From IMG/VR virus record IMGVR_UViG_3300042879_002628, positions 1 to 30,335 of that record: DNA of 30,335 bases, one strand, 5' to 3'. Origin of the DNA: a virus. The position numbers and the translations under genes are program-made. The notes under the pieces are model-generated. The model made no database searches and was not told the origin of the DNA. It worked only from the letters and a program-made list of their open reading frames with translations. Of this stretch, positions 4,376 to 30,335 are shown piece by piece (positions within the stretch are counted from its first letter, which is position 1; every line of letters starts with the position of its first letter).

Positions 4376-6295
4376 ATGAAGCGACTTCCCACACTCTACC
4401 AAGAGTTTATTCACCTTTCGCGCTACTCACGCTGGCTTGAAGACAACAAGCGGCGTGAGTCTTGGGAAGAAACCGTGAATCGGTATTTCAATTTCTTCGA
4501 TGAGCATTTCGCAGAAAAGGGAATCAAGATAAATAAAACAGTACGAGAGGAATTGCGTGATGCAGTCCTGAACCTTGAAGTCATGCCGTCCATGCGGTCA
4601 CTGATGACCGCAGGCGAAGCACTGAAGCGGGATAACACCGCAGGCTACAACTGCTCCTACATTGCTGTAAACAAGGTTCGCGCATTCGATGAGATTCTTT
4701 ACATTCTCATGTGCGGAACGGGAGTGGGCTTCAGCGTGGAGAGGCAGTATGTGGAGAAACTTCCTACAATTGCTGAAGAGTTTACCAACAGCGATACGCT
4801 CATCGTTGTCAAGGACTCCAAAGAAGGATGGGCAAAATCCTTCCGAGAACTGGTATCCCTACTTATTGGAGGTCAAATCCCCCGATGGGACTTGTCTCAC
4901 ATTCGTCCTGCTGGTTCGCGCCTCAAGACTTTCGGTGGACGCGCAAGTGGACCACAGCCACTGGAAGACCTCTTCCGATTTACCGTCAGTACTTTTAAGA
5001 AGGCTGCGGGACGAAAACTCACTTCCATTGAATGCCACGACATTATCTGTAAGGTTGCAGAGATTGTCGTTGTCGGGGGTGTCCGTAGATCGGCTCTTAT
5101 CTCGCTTTCCAACCTCACGGATGAACGGATGCGTGATGCTAAGGTGGGTCAATGGTGGTTGGACAACCCACAACGGGCGTTAGCAAACAATTCCGTTGCG
5201 TACAAGGAGAAGCCCGAGATCGGCACATTCATGGAGGAGTGGCTGTCTCTGTACAAGAGCAAGAGCGGTGAGCGTGGCGTGTTCAATCGCCAAGCCGCAC
5301 AGAAAACCGTTTCAAAACTAGGAGAACGCCGTGATGCGACTTATGAATTCGGCACGAATCCTTGCTCGGAAATTATTCTTCGTGACAAGGAATTTTGTAA
5401 CCTTTCTGAAGTCATTGTCCGTCCCGATGATACTGCTGACACTCTCAAGCGAAAGGTTCGTCTAGCAGCCATTCTCGGCACTTGGCAAGCCTCGCTTACC
5501 CACTTCCCGTACCTCAGCAGTGATTGGCGCAAGAACTGCGAGGAGGAAGCACTGCTTGGAGTTTCGCTCACGGGAATCCTTGACAACAAGATGATGCGTA
5601 CACAGGGCACTGAACTTGATTCTCTCCTGTCTTGCCTCCGTGAGACAGCGGTGGACGCAAACAAGGAGTGGGCAAAGCGCATGGGCATCAACCCTGCGGC
5701 AGCAATCACTTGTGTAAAGCCAAGCGGCACGGTGTCGCAGTTGACGGATTCCGCAAGCGGCATTCACGCACGGCACAGCGAATACTACATCCGCACCGTC
5801 CGCGCTGACCGCAAAGACCCCCTGTGCCAGTTTATGATCGAACAGGGATTCCCTGCGGAGCCGTGTGTCATGCGCCCCGACCACACGATGGTGTTTTCGT
5901 TCCCCATGAAGGCAGTGGGTTCCGTTACCCGCAACGACATGACTGCAATTGAACACTTGGAGTTGTGGCTTACCTATCAGCGGCACTGGTGTGAACACAA
6001 GCCAAGCATCACTGTTACCGTGCGGGAAGGTGAGTGGATGGAGGTGGGTGCGTGGGTGTACGCGCACTTTGACGAGATCAGCGGCATTTCTTTCCTGCCC
6101 CACTCCGATCACACCTATCAGCAAGCCCCGTATCAGGACTGCACCGCAGAGCAATACGAGGCTGCACTGAAGACCATCCCACAGAATGTGGACTGGTCAG
6201 GACTCATCAAGTTTGAAAAGGAAGACTCCACCAAGGGCACACAGACATACGCTTGCAGCGGAGACAAGTGTGAGGTGGTTGATCTGACTACATAA
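4376..6295 (+). CDS. nrdJ: Adenosylcobalamin-dependent (class II) ribonucleotide reductase
   Basis: The enzyme reduces ribonucleotides to deoxyribonucleotides using a cobalamin-derived radical, supplying dNTPs for phage replication. The 639-residue length fits the monomeric class II group, slightly short of Lactobacillus-type RTPR. Visible catalytic features are the YNCS cysteine (Cys93), the NPCSE loop (Asn328, Cys330, Glu332) and the second disulfide cysteine Cys341. A C-terminal CSGDKC pair (Cys627/Cys632) serves for re-reduction. A clear AAGGAG ribosome site precedes the ATG. No NrdB or activase gene is nearby, consistent with class II. The gene stands alone between the adhesion genes and a strong terminator, so it is probably its own transcription unit. 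Activity would depend on host B12. Confidence 0.93.
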   Translation: MKRLPTLYQEFIHLSRYSRWLEDNKRRESWEETVNRYFNFFDEHFAEKGIKINKTVREELRDAVLNLEVMPSMRSLMTAGEALKRDNTAGYNCSYIAVNKVRAFDEILYILMCGTGVGFSVERQYVEKLPTIAEEFTNSDTLIVVKDSKEGWAKSFRELVSLLIGGQIPRWDLSHIRPAGSRLKTFGGRASGPQPLEDLFRFTVSTFKKAAGRKLTSIECHDIICKVAEIVVVGGVRRSALISLSNLTDERMRDAKVGQWWLDNPQRALANNSVAYKEKPEIGTFMEEWLSLYKSKSGERGVFNRQAAQKTVSKLGERRDATYEFGTNPCSEIILRDKEFCNLSEVIVRPDDTADTLKRKVRLAAILGTWQASLTHFPYLSSDWRKNCEEEALLGVSLTGILDNKMMRTQGTELDSLLSCLRETAVDANKEWAKRMGINPAAAITCVKPSGTVSQLTDSASGIHARHSEYYIRTVRADRKDPLCQFMIEQGFPAEPCVMRPDHTMVFSFPMKAVGSVTRNDMTAIEHLELWLTYQRHWCEHKPSITVTVREGEWMEVGAWVYAHFDEISGISFLPHSDHTYQQAPYQDCTAEQYEAALKTIPQNVDWSGLIKFEKEDSTKGTQTYACSGDKCEVVDLTT

Positions 6296-9043: not shown

Positions 9044-9059
9044 AGCCTCCTTAAAGGCT
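9044..9059 (-). promoter_or_regulatory. Ribosome-site hairpin before the 63-aa gene
   Basis: AGCCT (9044-9048) and AGGCT (9055-9059) can pair around the six-base loop CCTTAA (plus strand). On the minus strand the AAGGAGG ribosome site lies partly in the loop and partly in the stem, three bases from the start codon. The stem is short, so the effect may be modest. Confidence 0.35.
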
Positions 9060-9434
9060 CCGCAGAGCCTCAGCCAGCCGTCCGTCCAATGGAATGCTGT
9101 CCATGTTCCGTTCGTCCAATACCATTCCTTCTCCTATGTAGTTCAAATAGAGAAGCGCGGTTTTCAGAGGCGGGTGGAGGGTTTCATCTAGTTTGAAAAA
9201 TAGAAGACGGGACGCTACTCGGGGAGTAAACACATTCCCAAGCACCATCAGGTGGTTGAGCAGTAGTATGGGGCGTATCTTGCCTGTTCGATTGTATTTT
9301 TTCAGAAGCCGCTTCACATATTTGATGCGGTTCATGTCTTCCTGAAACTCAACAATGCTTTCGCACTCGGGGTTTGTGTATTGCCCCATAGCGTACAGCA
9401 TGAAATTATCGCGGTTGAGTTTTTTGAAGTCCAT
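9051..9434 (-). CDS. Conserved phage protein of unknown function (127 aa)
   Basis: The protein begins MDFKKLNRDNFMLYAMGQY and continues NPECESIVEFQEDMNRIKYVKR, then LLLNHLMVLGNVF and LLFFKLDE. I recognise this as a helical family common in T4-like marine phages, with the sequence NPxC, EFxED and LNHxxVLxNVF, but with no assigned function. No signal or membrane segment is present. Its start follows the 57-residue gene by 15 bases. No strong Shine-Dalgarno is visible, so translation may be coupled to upstream genes. Its stop lies in the ribosome-site hairpin of the next gene. Confidence 0.7.
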   Translation of the reverse strand: MDFKKLNRDNFMLYAMGQYTNPECESIVEFQEDMNRIKYVKRLLKKYNRTGKIRPILLLNHLMVLGNVFTPRVASRLLFFKLDETLHPPLKTALLYLNYIGEGMVLDERNMDSIPLDGRLAEALRSL

Positions 9435-17129: not shown

Positions 17130-19255
17130 TTCATTTTCTTCCACGCTGCCTTGCCTTCTTCTGAACGCTTGTTGATGGCAGCGTCTTTTGCTGCCATTAC
17201 ACGCTTTCTACGCTCTGCATCAATCTTTGCCAATTCGTCTTTTGACAGTTTGCGAATCTCGTTGATTGAAATCTTGCCCACATCCGAGAAGTCTGCACTT
17301 TCCCATATCATGTCGTTGCCACGATCAAGCATGATGCGGCGCGTCTTTTTGTTGAGTATTTGCAGACCTGTTCCCGCTGCGTACAGTTCCACTGGAGTCG
17401 TACCAACCATGTACACCACATCACCCATTTTCATAACCTTCTTGACCTTGATGGTTGATGCCTTGCCACCCTTCGTGCCGTAAATCTCAAATGTGGTTCC
17501 CACTGGCTTGATGTCTGCCGTGTCGATCAAGTCTTGTGCGGTGGCAATGTTCGCGCTCACTGCTGCTTGGGTCTTTTTCCACCCAAAAGAAATCTTCTCT
17601 TGATCCTTCTTGCTCTTCAACAAGTTTCCTGCCGCATCGGTCTTGCGCGGCTTTGATGGGGTCAACGCACCCGCGTAGTACTGCGGATCATCTGTGTCAA
17701 CGACCATCCCCGAGCGGAATGTGCCGATGGTGGGTGTGCGGTCGAACTTTTTCTTTGCTGCTTCATCAAGACGAGACTGCACCGATTCGTGGATGTTCTG
17801 CACGGCACGACCAATCCTGCATCTCTTGAATGCACCAATGAACGACTCTTTCTGTGTTTTTGGTTTGTCTTGCACGGTTGCTCCTGAGCGGCTTTGGCTC
17901 ATCAATCCAATGTCTTTTTGAAACTTGTTCGAGAACTGAATTATCTCGTCCACGGGCACTGGCTTGCCGCCCTTCGTGATGGTGCGGGTCTTCATCTTGG
18001 CATTCGTGCCGTTGCCGTTGGCAATGTCCACCGCGCACTGCGCTGCCCAACGATGGTGTCCGTCAATCACATACCCATCGGACACATAGATGGGTTCAAG
18101 CAGACGCGAGGCTTGCTTGCCGTAGTTGTCAGGGTCTTGCTGCGCGGCAACGAGTGTGGCATACATTGCTGCCACCTTGGAACCTAGCAGTTCTCCTTGA
18201 ATGGGCTTGAGAGCAGTCGCATCCACTTCCTCTTCCTGTATCTCGTATCCCGCTTGCTCAAGTGCCTCGCGGTACTGTTTCTCCATGTTGATCTCAAGTT
18301 TCAGATCTTCGGGCGTAACCTGATCAGGTGAGGTGTAGCCCTTGCCTGCCATCAGAGTCTTGAATGCAGCAGAGTCTGTCTTGCTTGGGTCAACCTGTGA
18401 CGAGAACTGCGGCATCTCCTTGCGGACAATTCCCTTCGTGGTCTTGATTCCGCTCTTGTCGTAGCAGAATCCAACCTGAGAGAATACCTTGGCGCACAAC
18501 TCAAAGTCAATTACTTTCTGTCCACGCAGTGCAGCCAGTGCAGCGTGGTTCATCTCGTCCGCGAATGCCCGTTCCGTGGCAGCGTCACCGAACACTGAGT
18601 CACGATCTTGCTGCGGACCGGCAAATGCTTTTGTCTTTACTGCGTTTGCCACCACATTAGCCTTGCGGATATCCACCTTGGGCTTTTGCGTGGGGTCTTC
18701 GGTGAACCCCGTGTCAAACTGCGTTTTCGGATCTTCTGCCGCTATCTCGGGGTGTTCCTCTTCGGGTTGCGGTTCTTGAGGTTTTGCTTTTTCTGCACCC
18801 GCTTTGCCACCTTGCGGTTGTGCTTGATGCTGCGTATCAGCGGGAACCGCTTTCGCTTGGGGGGCGGGTTTTCCTGTTCCGGTGGCTGCGGGTTTTGCTG
18901 CATCTGGCTGTACGGCTCCTTTTGCAACGGGCTTCTGATCTGCTGCCTTGTCCTTGGCGTATCCGTCTTGATCTAACGGAACCTCGCGTGAACTGTCCAC
19001 TTCACCGTGATCCACGCTTCCACCGCGACCCTGACCTTTGGAGTATGCCTTGGCGCGTTGTTCGTCACCGAAATAGTCCGTGACTCCTGCGGGATTCTTT
19101 GCACCAAAATGACCGCTTGCGGTCTTCCATACTTCACCCTTCTTGCGCTCTGTCTTGGGCTTTGCTGCCTGCTGTGGCTGTGCAACAGGCGCGGGAGCCG
19201 CTGCTGCCTGAACCTCAAATATGATGGTGCGTAGGCTTTTGTATAGGTCGCTCAT
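17126..19255 (-). CDS. Large virion-operon protein with a ParB-like domain (709 aa)
   Basis: The protein starts MSDLYKSLRTIIFEV. It then has a low-complexity region rich in Ala, Pro, Gln and Lys (about 18-175). A helical part (about 195-380) leads to GYVIDGHHRWAA (394-405), the signature of ParB/Srx-type domains, which hydrolyse CTP or cut DNA in relatives. The C-terminal third is beta-rich and ends in a highly charged helix (AKIDAERRKRVMAAKDAAIN). ATGA overlaps join it to the genes on both sides. Its place between a coiled-coil protein and a basic core-like protein suggests a virion or packaging role. Catalysis is unproven. Confidence 0.65.
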   Translation of the reverse strand: MSDLYKSLRTIIFEVQAAAAPAPVAQPQQAAKPKTERKKGEVWKTASGHFGAKNPAGVTDYFGDEQRAKAYSKGQGRGGSVDHGEVDSSREVPLDQDGYAKDKAADQKPVAKGAVQPDAAKPAATGTGKPAPQAKAVPADTQHQAQPQGGKAGAEKAKPQEPQPEEEHPEIAAEDPKTQFDTGFTEDPTQKPKVDIRKANVVANAVKTKAFAGPQQDRDSVFGDAATERAFADEMNHAALAALRGQKVIDFELCAKVFSQVGFCYDKSGIKTTKGIVRKEMPQFSSQVDPSKTDSAAFKTLMAGKGYTSPDQVTPEDLKLEINMEKQYREALEQAGYEIQEEEVDATALKPIQGELLGSKVAAMYATLVAAQQDPDNYGKQASRLLEPIYVSDGYVIDGHHRWAAQCAVDIANGNGTNAKMKTRTITKGGKPVPVDEIIQFSNKFQKDIGLMSQSRSGATVQDKPKTQKESFIGAFKRCRIGRAVQNIHESVQSRLDEAAKKKFDRTPTIGTFRSGMVVDTDDPQYYAGALTPSKPRKTDAAGNLLKSKKDQEKISFGWKKTQAAVSANIATAQDLIDTADIKPVGTTFEIYGTKGGKASTIKVKKVMKMGDVVYMVGTTPVELYAAGTGLQILNKKTRRIMLDRGNDMIWESADFSDVGKISINEIRKLSKDELAKIDAERRKRVMAAKDAAINKRSEEGKAAWKKMK

Positions 19256-28384: not shown

Positions 28385-28402
28385 AGTGTAGTCTCCTACA
28401 CT
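28385..28402 (-). promoter_or_regulatory. Ribosome-site hairpin abutting the zinc-ribbon start codon
   Basis: AGTGTAG and CTACACT form a perfect 7-bp stem around a four-base loop (18 bases in all). On the minus strand the loop is GAGA and the AGGAG ribosome site spans stem and loop. The hairpin ends exactly at the base before the ATG. This is the geometry of a translational operator. The last stem base is also part of the upstream stop codon. Confidence 0.6.
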
Positions 28403-28827
28403 TATGTAGCGCACTCCCGCGAGAGTTTCCGCATGTACTTGCGATGCTCCTTCAGCAGTACACGGCGTGGAATGGGAAGTTTAAATTCGCGGCACAGGGC
28501 TAGTGCTTCCGCTTCCGTCTGTACTTCCAGTGTCAGGTAGTCTTTTTCTTTCCAAATGGGATCGTCACGCATCCACTGTAGGAAATGGGCGTATTCGTGG
28601 GCCAGGGTGTACAGCCAGTCAGAGACACGGCGACCACCCACTGCTACACGGAGTTCACCGTAGTGACCCCGTGAGTGCCACGGCTCAATGAAATAGCCTT
28701 GGCAGCGTTCACCGTCTGCGTTTACTTCGTAGCCGGGGGAAAGGGTAAAGCGCACATTGCATTTCTTGCACTGTGAGCGGACAGTCTTTAGGAAGTGTTG
28801 GACTCGGGGATTCTTTAGGTAAGCCAT
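28402..28827 (-). CDS. Putative HExxH zinc metallopeptidase (141 aa)
   Basis: The protein contains LAHEYAHFLQW (residues 75-85), an HExxH zinc site (His77, Glu78, His81), with a downstream glutamate-rich helix (VQTEAEALALC) that could give the third ligand (Glu105 or Glu107). An N-terminal CKKC (20-23) may form a second small metal site. The size resembles short SprT/IrrE-like peptidases found in phages. GAGGAG precedes the ATG. It is the first gene of the minus-strand block, transcribed away from the structured gap. Possible roles are processing of host or phage proteins; the substrate is unknown. Confidence 0.72.
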   Translation of the reverse strand: MAYLKNPRVQHFLKTVRSQCKKCNVRFTLSPGYEVNADGERCQGYFIEPWHSRGHYGELRVAVGGRRVSDWLYTLAHEYAHFLQWMRDDPIWKEKDYLTLEVQTEAEALALCREFKLPIPRRVLLKEHRKYMRKLSRECAT

Positions 28828-28868: not shown

Positions 28869-28929
28869 CGAGAAGAAAGTGTAAAGAAAAGCGGAGGGGC
28901 TATACTTCACTTCCCGCTCTCAAAAATTG

Positions 28930-29013
28930 GCGCGGTGGGGCCGGGGAAACCGCGCTGCCCGGAGGGTACAGGGGTGTTATCGGACTTTGGAAAGCCGTAA
29001 GTCCTTTAATACC
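28930..29013. ncRNA. Structured gene-free element, candidate non-coding RNA
   Basis: The 261-base gap between the divergent genes holds two strong hairpins. The first is GCGCGGT/ACCGCGC (28930-28936 with 28949-28955, 7 bp). The second is compound: GGTGTTA/TAATACC (28973-28979 with 29007-29013, one G-T pair), then a 2x2 internal loop, then GGACTT/AAGTCC (28982-28987 with 28999-29004). No reading frame explains them. A plus-strand TATACT at 28901-28906 could start a transcript of about 100 bases. A structured leader or replication-related site is also possible. No tRNA fold was found. Confidence 0.4.
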
Positions 29014-29053
29014 AAGGGTTTACGAAAATCTATATTTGAATGCCCGGTTTGGC

Positions 29054-29082
29054 TTGCAAATAAGCCTATTTTCCAGTACAAT
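29054..29082 (+). promoter_or_regulatory. Sigma70-like promoter for the CobT-like gene
   Basis: TTGCAA (29054-29059) and TACAAT (29077-29082) are separated by exactly 17 bases, each one mismatch from consensus or close to it. Transcription should begin about seven bases later, at the ATG at 29089, which has no ribosome site. This suggests early, host-polymerase-driven, leaderless expression. Confidence 0.7.
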
Positions 29083-29088
29083 TTGGGC

Positions 29089-30335
29089 ATGTCGATTCTC
29101 TCGCCTACCGCTCCCGTGTCCGCTCCTCAGCCCCTCGTGGCCGTCAAGTCCATGCTGGCGCGTCTGCTTGCCACCGAGAATATTTCGGTGGAACACGCCG
29201 ATGTGCAGACCGCTGCGTTTGATCTGCGTACCCGTACCCTCATCCTGCCCCGTTGGAAGGACATGAGCAACGCGCTGTACGACATGCTCGTTGGCCACGA
29301 GGTGAGCCACGCCCTGTTCACGCCGCAGGACGGGTGGAAGACTGACGCGACTGCCCTGGCCACGAAGCACGGTGTGCCCGAGGGCATTGCTCGTCAGTAC
29401 CTGAACATCGCGGAGGATGCCCGTATCGAACGGCTCATCAAGGACAAGTTCCCCGGCCTCCGTGCAGACTTCCACAAGGGCTACGGCGAACTCCACGCGA
29501 AGAATTTCTTTGGCGTGACGGAAGCGCAGATGCCGAGCCTGTCGCTGGCTGACCGCGTGAACCTCCACTCCAAGTTGGGTCTGCATGTGGACGCGGTTGT
29601 GCCGTTCACTGCGGACGAAGCCGCCATCCGCGATTTCGTGATGGGCGCGAAGACTTGGGCTGACACCGTGACGGGTGCTGACCGTATGCTTGCGGCTGAC
29701 GCTGCCCAGTGGCAGAAGCAGGAGGAAGAGCCGCAGGAAGTGGAAGACGGTGAGCCGCAGGGCAGCACCGAGGGTGAGCCGCAGGACGGCGGCACGGACG
29801 CTGACGGTACGGACGGACAGCCGCAGTCCAAGCAGGACGAAGACGGGAAGACCAACCCCGGCAGCGGGGACGAGTCCGGTCAGCAGGAGAGCCAGTCGCA
29901 GGACAGCACTGACGCGCAGGACGCGCAGGACACGCAGTCGAAGTCCTCGCCCGAGCAGGAAGGCCCCGGCAGTGGCGGCACGAAGGGCAAGACCAACAGC
30001 CCGTCCGTGCCCACTGGCCCGGTGACCGCGAACGCTCTTGAGAACGCTCTGAAGACTCTGAACGAGACTTCTTCCAAGTGCCCGGACATTGTTCGTGCAA
30101 AGATGATCGCGCCCTCCACCGATGTGATCGTGCCGTTTGCCACCGTGCTGAAGGACTGCGAGTCCGTTCTTGGCAAGCAGCGCATTAGCATTCTGCCGTT
30201 CCGCAACACGGACTTCACCCGCGCCAGCGGTTCGATGGCTACCGCGTTCGACCGCCGCAAGGCTGCGGATGTGTGGCGGCGCACCACTGTTGCGAAGAGC
30301 GGTTCCATCGACCCCCTCCGCATGAACCAGTACAA
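29089..30335 (+). CDS. CobT-like metallopeptidase, 3' end outside window
   Basis: The frame is open to the end of the window (415 codons visible). The N-terminal domain carries VGHEVSHALFTPQDGW with an HExxH zinc site (His70, Glu71, His74). NIAEDARIERLIKDKFPG follows (about 107-124), whose glutamates could be the third ligand. Residues about 205-305 are a disordered acidic, Gln/Pro/Gly/Ser-rich linker. A folded region resumes near 315. This plan matches phage CobT-like proteins, which end in a VWA domain and work beside a CobS-like AAA+ ATPase; both would lie beyond the window. They are probably a phage protein-remodelling system rather than B12 synthesis. The sequence here is more GC-rich than the left half. 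Confidence 0.75.
   Translation, partial: MSILSPTAPVSAPQPLVAVKSMLARLLATENISVEHADVQTAAFDLRTRTLILPRWKDMSNALYDMLVGHEVSHALFTPQDGWKTDATALATKHGVPEGIARQYLNIAEDARIERLIKDKFPGLRADFHKGYGELHAKNFFGVTEAQMPSLSLADRVNLHSKLGLHVDAVVPFTADEAAIRDFVMGAKTWADTVTGADRMLAADAAQWQKQEEEPQEVEDGEPQGSTEGEPQDGGTDADGTDGQPQSKQDEDGKTNPGSGDESGQQESQSQDSTDAQDAQDTQSKSSPEQEGPGSGGTKGKTNSPSVPTGPVTANALENALKTLNETSSKCPDIVRAKMIAPSTDVIVPFATVLKDCESVLGKQRISILPFRNTDFTRASGSMATAFDRRKAADVWRRTTVAKSGSIDPLRMNQY

Follow-up and report, generated by a model that had tools for sequence, protein, structure and literature searches.

In an uncultured lineage of T4-like phages, the DNA upstream of a cobT-like gene is probably the control region of an early promoter, and it appears to carry a factor-read operator that is shared by the promoters of cobT, cobS, and a gene for a DUF5710 protein. 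The window analyzed here is a 30,335-base phage fragment from IMG/VR that belongs to this lineage. Its cobT-like gene is cut by the contig end, and the cobS and third-gene sites, which lie beyond that end, are taken from relatives. The features of the window that are relevant to this proposal are as follows.

28402 to 28827, − strand: divergent gene for a zincin-like protein with an HExxH motif (weakly SprT/IrrE-like; from the open reading frame list, with Peptidase_M78 at E = 0.072 as the only match)
28930 to 28955, + strand: 7-bp GC hairpin (28930 to 28936 pairs with 28949 to 28955; 12-nt loop); not conserved, and set in GC-rich sequence that varies among relatives
28973 to 29013, + strand: compound hairpin of 13 pairs around a 2x2 internal loop, a structure that relatives do not keep
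28977 to 28985, + strand: conserved box TTATCGGAC (consensus TTATYGGAC), putative regulator site; invariant in alignment A2 and recurring before the cobS and DUF5710 promoters
28996 to 29024, + strand: interrupted palindrome CGTAA-N2-CCTT-N7-AAGG-N2-TTACG, putative dimer operator; arms invariant or nearly so, with a second copy at cobS
29054 to 29059, + strand: predicted early promoter −35 hexamer TTGCAA; TTGC invariant in A2
29077 to 29082, + strand: predicted −10 hexamer TACAAT after a 17-nt spacer; within the invariant TTTTCCAGTACAAT
29089 to 30335, + strand: cobT-like gene (vWA protein, usually annotated as 'peptidase'; phrog_459, E = 1.8e-84; CobS synteny in cyanophages; naming follows PMC8651126)

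Gene context of the element

The two genes that flank the element are divergent, as originally predicted, and the HExxH gene is a conserved neighbor in relatives. The intervening DNA had also been described as lacking any reading frame, which is correct only in part. The cobT frame is open upstream as far as a TTG at 28927, but relatives share an invariant −10 hexamer and ATG, and the start is therefore placed at 29089. The cobT-like protein exhibits 45 to 47% identity, over 43 to 44% of its length, to a cyanophage protein encoded beside or near CobS, and the cyanophage 'peptidase' has been reported to be a mis-annotated CobT (PMC8651126). The gene that follows cobT in relatives is CobS-like (phrog_249, E = 2.5e-105; AAA_5). 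Both are cobalt-chelatase-like genes of the vitamin B12 type.

Two other regions of the window deserve mention. A ribonucleotide reductase encoded at 4376 to 6292 (+ strand) is closest to the adenosylcobalamin-dependent RTPR type (306 bits to TIGR02505, which is below the cutoff of 340; E = 3e-48 to PDB 1l1l). A B12-dependent ribonucleotide reductase in a phage that also carries cobT, with cobS in relatives, hints at a possible connection to B12. Separately, many neighboring proteins encoded between 16581 and 26068 (− strand) share FxxxLxE-type N-termini (MKDFRSHLAEMFE, MIDFRSYLTELFD, and MKTFAQHLREAV; example starts at 17144, 22827, 23657, 24094, 24780, 25514, and 26068), which may resemble the sequences that target the internal head proteins of T4 to the capsid.

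Conservation of the box, the palindrome, and the promoter

Searches with both flanking proteins and with DNA patterns yielded more than 20 related contigs that carry the element, all metagenomic, and the 11 closest, distinct sequences constitute alignment A2. Among the columns that never vary are those of TTATCGGAC, CCGTAA, the greater part of both palindrome arms, TTGC, TTTTCCAGTACAAT, and the ATG. The conserved feature overlaps the second hairpin and extends beyond the interval 28930 to 29013 to which the original prediction was confined. The palindrome pattern occurs at one place in the window, with zero occurrences expected in shuffles. To the left of the box, the GC-rich stretch differs among relatives in both sequence and length, and the whole upstream part, 152 nt long in the window, ranges from 156 to 266 nt in the relatives. 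Three of these (L019, L016, and L020) carry long imperfect hairpins in this variable stretch that are absent from the window (e.g., TTAAGCCATTA..TAATGGCTTAA in L019).

Promoter calls here rest on consensus and conservation. The window's cobT ATG lies 6 nt after the −10 hexamer, and across cobT, cobS, and the third gene this distance is only 6 to 9 nt, with no evident Shine-Dalgarno sequence. The mRNAs of all three genes are therefore probably leaderless or nearly so. A candidate late promoter at the ATATTTGAAT stretch (approximately 29032 to 29041) was rejected; T4-like late-type 8-mers (CTAAATAG and CTAAATAA) are instead enriched in the intergenic DNA of two near-complete relatives, G002 and G009.

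Double-stranded site versus RNA structure

Both hairpins that were first described are present in the window, and neither is followed by a T-tract, again as described. The claim that the region is highly structured holds less well. Its predicted RNA fold (28930 to 29013) has a free energy of −35.9 kcal/mol, which corresponds to a z-score of −2.07 and was matched in stability by 11 of 200 shuffles, and the DNA fold of 28930 to 29024 gives a z-score of −1.36. This is a modest excess for a stretch chosen by eye. Moreover, relatives do not keep the hairpins: the 7-bp GC hairpin sits in sequence that defied alignment across them, and the cells of the 13-pair hairpin are paired at 65.7% in the 11 relatives versus 65.4% in shuffles. 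Both hairpins thus fail the comparison with related phages that the original prediction had itself proposed.

Among the possibilities originally raised was a phage small RNA, to which a structured leader can be added; in either case the hairpins would act as RNA. The somewhat greater stability relative to shuffles is consistent with this idea, as is the recovery of the palindrome by RNAalifold as a consensus hairpin. However, covariation was evaluated for three alternative structures among the relatives, and none rose above shuffles: the 13-pair hairpin has one both-sided change, a number reached by 167 of 500 shuffles, and the other two structures have none. An Rfam search returned no family, the best sub-threshold match being to a microRNA model (E = 0.065). 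No predicted promoter reads into the element, and because the predicted + strand promoter lies downstream of it, the element should be outside the cobT transcript. We therefore regard an RNA function as very improbable.

The palindrome itself behaves differently from an RNA stem. It is 94% paired in A2: 8 of its 11 pairs are constant, compensatory changes are absent, and 5 of the 11 sequences lack one inner pair. In copies where the palindrome precedes the box, complete fixation is confined to GTAA and TTA, with AAGG close to it, and the inner left arm outside GTAA drifts, which also argues against RNA pairing. Fixed arms without covariation are the pattern expected of a protein-bound double-stranded site. 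Of the options first offered, a protein-binding site is thus the one favored by the data, given that the box and palindrome are conserved as DNA and that the box recurs at promoters.

Intrinsic termination between the divergent genes, which GC-rich hairpins in intergenic DNA might suggest, can be given almost no weight. The original prediction considered simple terminators unlikely, and we agree: no GC hairpin is joined to a T-tract, no gene converges on the site, and a terminator scan gives only a weak stem at 29051 to 29066 that overlaps the −35 hexamer and occurs at shuffle frequency.

Recurrence of the box at three promoters

A second copy of the module is located approximately 2.45 kb downstream, between cobT and cobS, in relatives with enough sequence. 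Here the order is palindrome, 9 bases, and then box (TTA-N9-TTATYGGAC). This palindrome-first arrangement is represented by 15 distinct sequences, comprising the cobS copies and the cobT copies of the more distant relatives (group 2), and all have the fixed 9-bp gap. The reversed order at cobT in the window's own group (group 1) counts against a shared operator. A third box, which lacks the palindrome, precedes another gene and in several genomes sits directly behind a terminator-like hairpin. This third gene can be named with confidence only in genomes where its product was scanned: in G009 it encodes a DUF5710 protein (PF18974, E = 4.5e-11), and in G002 the downstream protein starts differently (MKNLFNN).

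Three near-complete relatives, G001 (147 kb), G002 (150 kb), and G009 (113 kb), reveal how selectively the box is used. Exactly three predicted promoters have a box within 90 bp upstream in G001 and G002, out of 20 and 13 candidates, respectively. For G009, the promoter listing gives a box at 2 of 11, and the cobS copy (TTATTGGACACT, with box TTATTGGAC), which was read separately, brings the number to three. Other predicted early-type promoters in these genomes have no box, and several carry a CAAATA motif. Because the box is found at three promoters and is absent from other early-type ones, it is most likely an operator for a transcription factor rather than a small RNA or a terminator. With regard to the CAAATA motif, several strong TTGACA-16/17-TANAAT promoters among those of the three genomes have CAAATA(A/T)..GAAA located 20 to 30 bp before the −35, and they apparently constitute a second promoter class.

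The distance between the box and the −35 is 26 to 27 bp at most cobS and third-gene promoters. With the −10 ending at −7, a box 26 bp before the −35 lies at about −61, a location that suggests an activator-type site. At cobT, the distance is 36 to 37 bp in group 2, 50 bp in G009, and 66 to 77 bp in group 1, where the palindrome lies in between. This inconstancy also speaks against the proposal, as does a pair of boxes away from promoters in G001 (near 144.42 kb). There (144412 to 144434), and likewise in L036 (approximately 567 to 590, − strand), two TTATCGGAC boxes are separated by 14 bp and lie close to the end of a gene and to a terminator-like hairpin, away from any promoter.

The box and the palindrome might instead be two sites for two proteins, for example a box for a host activator next to an operator for a phage repressor. 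Box without palindrome at the third promoter and the swapped order of the two elements between groups both fit this arrangement, and yet the fixed 9-bp gap in every palindrome-first copy favors joint use, and the two also occur together in an unrelated phage, L030 (see below). We consider two separate sites possible but doubtful, and this reading overlaps with that of a shared operator.

Another option raised originally is a replication origin or priming site at which an initiator would bind the palindrome and boxes. In the window the element does sit between divergent genes. The strongest point in favor comes from L030, where the module lies close to short GTAAC repeats and approximately 0.85 kb upstream of genes for a replication initiation protein and a DnaB helicase. 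However, each genome has the module twice and the box three times, always before a promoter, and cumulative GC skew extremes fall away from the element in G001 and G009 and only roughly near it in G002 (99.1 kb versus 102.8 to 105.3 kb). The presence of the same box at three separate promoters makes an origin improbable.

Occurrence beyond the lineage

Among 2.9 million viral contigs in IMG/VR, the box combined with a promoter was found in 28 stretches, compared with 6 for the reversed box. Five of the 28 belong to the window's family, and the remainder form about 15 clusters by hand count. The excess outside the family is modest (about 15 unrelated clusters versus 6), which is a further point against a shared operator. 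A single unrelated phage, whose sequence is present identically in the contigs L028 and L030, carries a box-palindrome module, TTATCGGACACTGGCCCCGTAACTCCTTGTGTTACAAGGAGTTA, that is close to the TTATCGGAC..GCTGTCCCCGTAA of the window's group. By our hand estimate (chance estimates for the box at promoters were likewise made by hand), this module is unlikely to have arisen by chance, which suggests exchange or a shared host factor. L030 also has short repeated GTAAC, GTTAGC, and GTAATC runs at 9050 to 9240, upstream of the replication initiation and helicase genes, and these are possibly iterons.

Cultured cyanophages and HTVC008M, which have the same cobT-cobS pair, yielded no promoter-linked box with zero or one mismatch, save a single match in HTVC008M that looks like coding sequence. 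When as many as two mismatches are permitted, the box-promoter pattern in these phages is at the level of the reversed control, with the exception of S-B43 (15 versus 5 matches, all with two mismatches). A scan of bacterial and archaeal genomes uncovered no host copy of the element; it recovered a single contig from the phage lineage itself, which had been assigned to a Betaproteobacteria metagenome-assembled genome by binning. Two other matches in that scan were rejected as apparent chance hits in which the rest of the element is absent. A DNA similarity search in phages and plasmids gave no match, and a literature search for the 9-mer box found no relevant paper among the results listed.

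Comparison with known phage promoters

Early promoters of T4 are sigma70-type and have an A-rich UP element for the alpha subunit of RNA polymerase upstream (PMC1524935). The promoters described here are similar in combining sigma70-type −35 and −10 hexamers with conserved sequence upstream of −40. They differ in that the conserved sequence is a specific 9-bp box plus palindrome, present at only three promoters per genome, and in that the −35 is TTGNNN rather than GTTTAC (PMC1524935). The MotA boxes of T4 middle promoters are likewise short, factor-read boxes at phage promoters. However, the MotA box (TGCTTTA) replaces the −35 at about −30 (PMC1524935), whereas all tabulated copies here have a TTGNNN −35 with a 16- to 17-nt spacer, and the box is at about −61 or further upstream.

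Cyanophages have been searched for NtcA and Pho boxes (PMC3037559), which resemble the present case as possible host-regulator sites at phage promoters. The sequences are distinct: NtcA sites are GTA-N8-TAC and Pho boxes are CTTA-N7-CTTA, compared with GTAA-N19-TTA plus TTATYGGAC here. Finally, cobT ('peptidase') adjoins cobS as it does in cyanophages (PMC8651126), but in the window's lineage a separate predicted promoter and operator copy precede each of the two genes, and the cyanophages checked yielded no such element.

Proposed function and implications

We propose that a host or phage transcription factor reads TTATYGGAC and the neighboring palindrome as double-stranded DNA, perhaps together or perhaps separately, and that this factor would act on sigma70 RNA polymerase at the TTGCAA-17-TACAAT promoter. 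With the box also present before cobS and the DUF5710 gene, three genes would fall under one control. From the observed conservation, recurrence, and spacing we infer protein binding, an action on transcription, and the direction of that action. A more specific version, in which a cobalamin- or metal-linked operator common to unrelated aquatic phages is read by a host regulator, seems unlikely. In that version, the three genes would be switched on together in a phage with a B12-dependent ribonucleotide reductase, and the phage's B12 supply would be tied to the state of the host.

If the proposal is correct, what had been an unexplained structured gap becomes a regulatory module that is concrete and testable, and operator sequences can give rise to hairpins in gaps of this kind as by-products. 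The uncultured lineage of T4-like phages would also have a small putative regulon that comprises cobT, cobS, and the third gene. In marine T4-like phages of cyanobacteria, cobS belongs to the core genes and has a proposed role in B12 supply; knowledge of the signal that controls it would offer a direct handle on that role.
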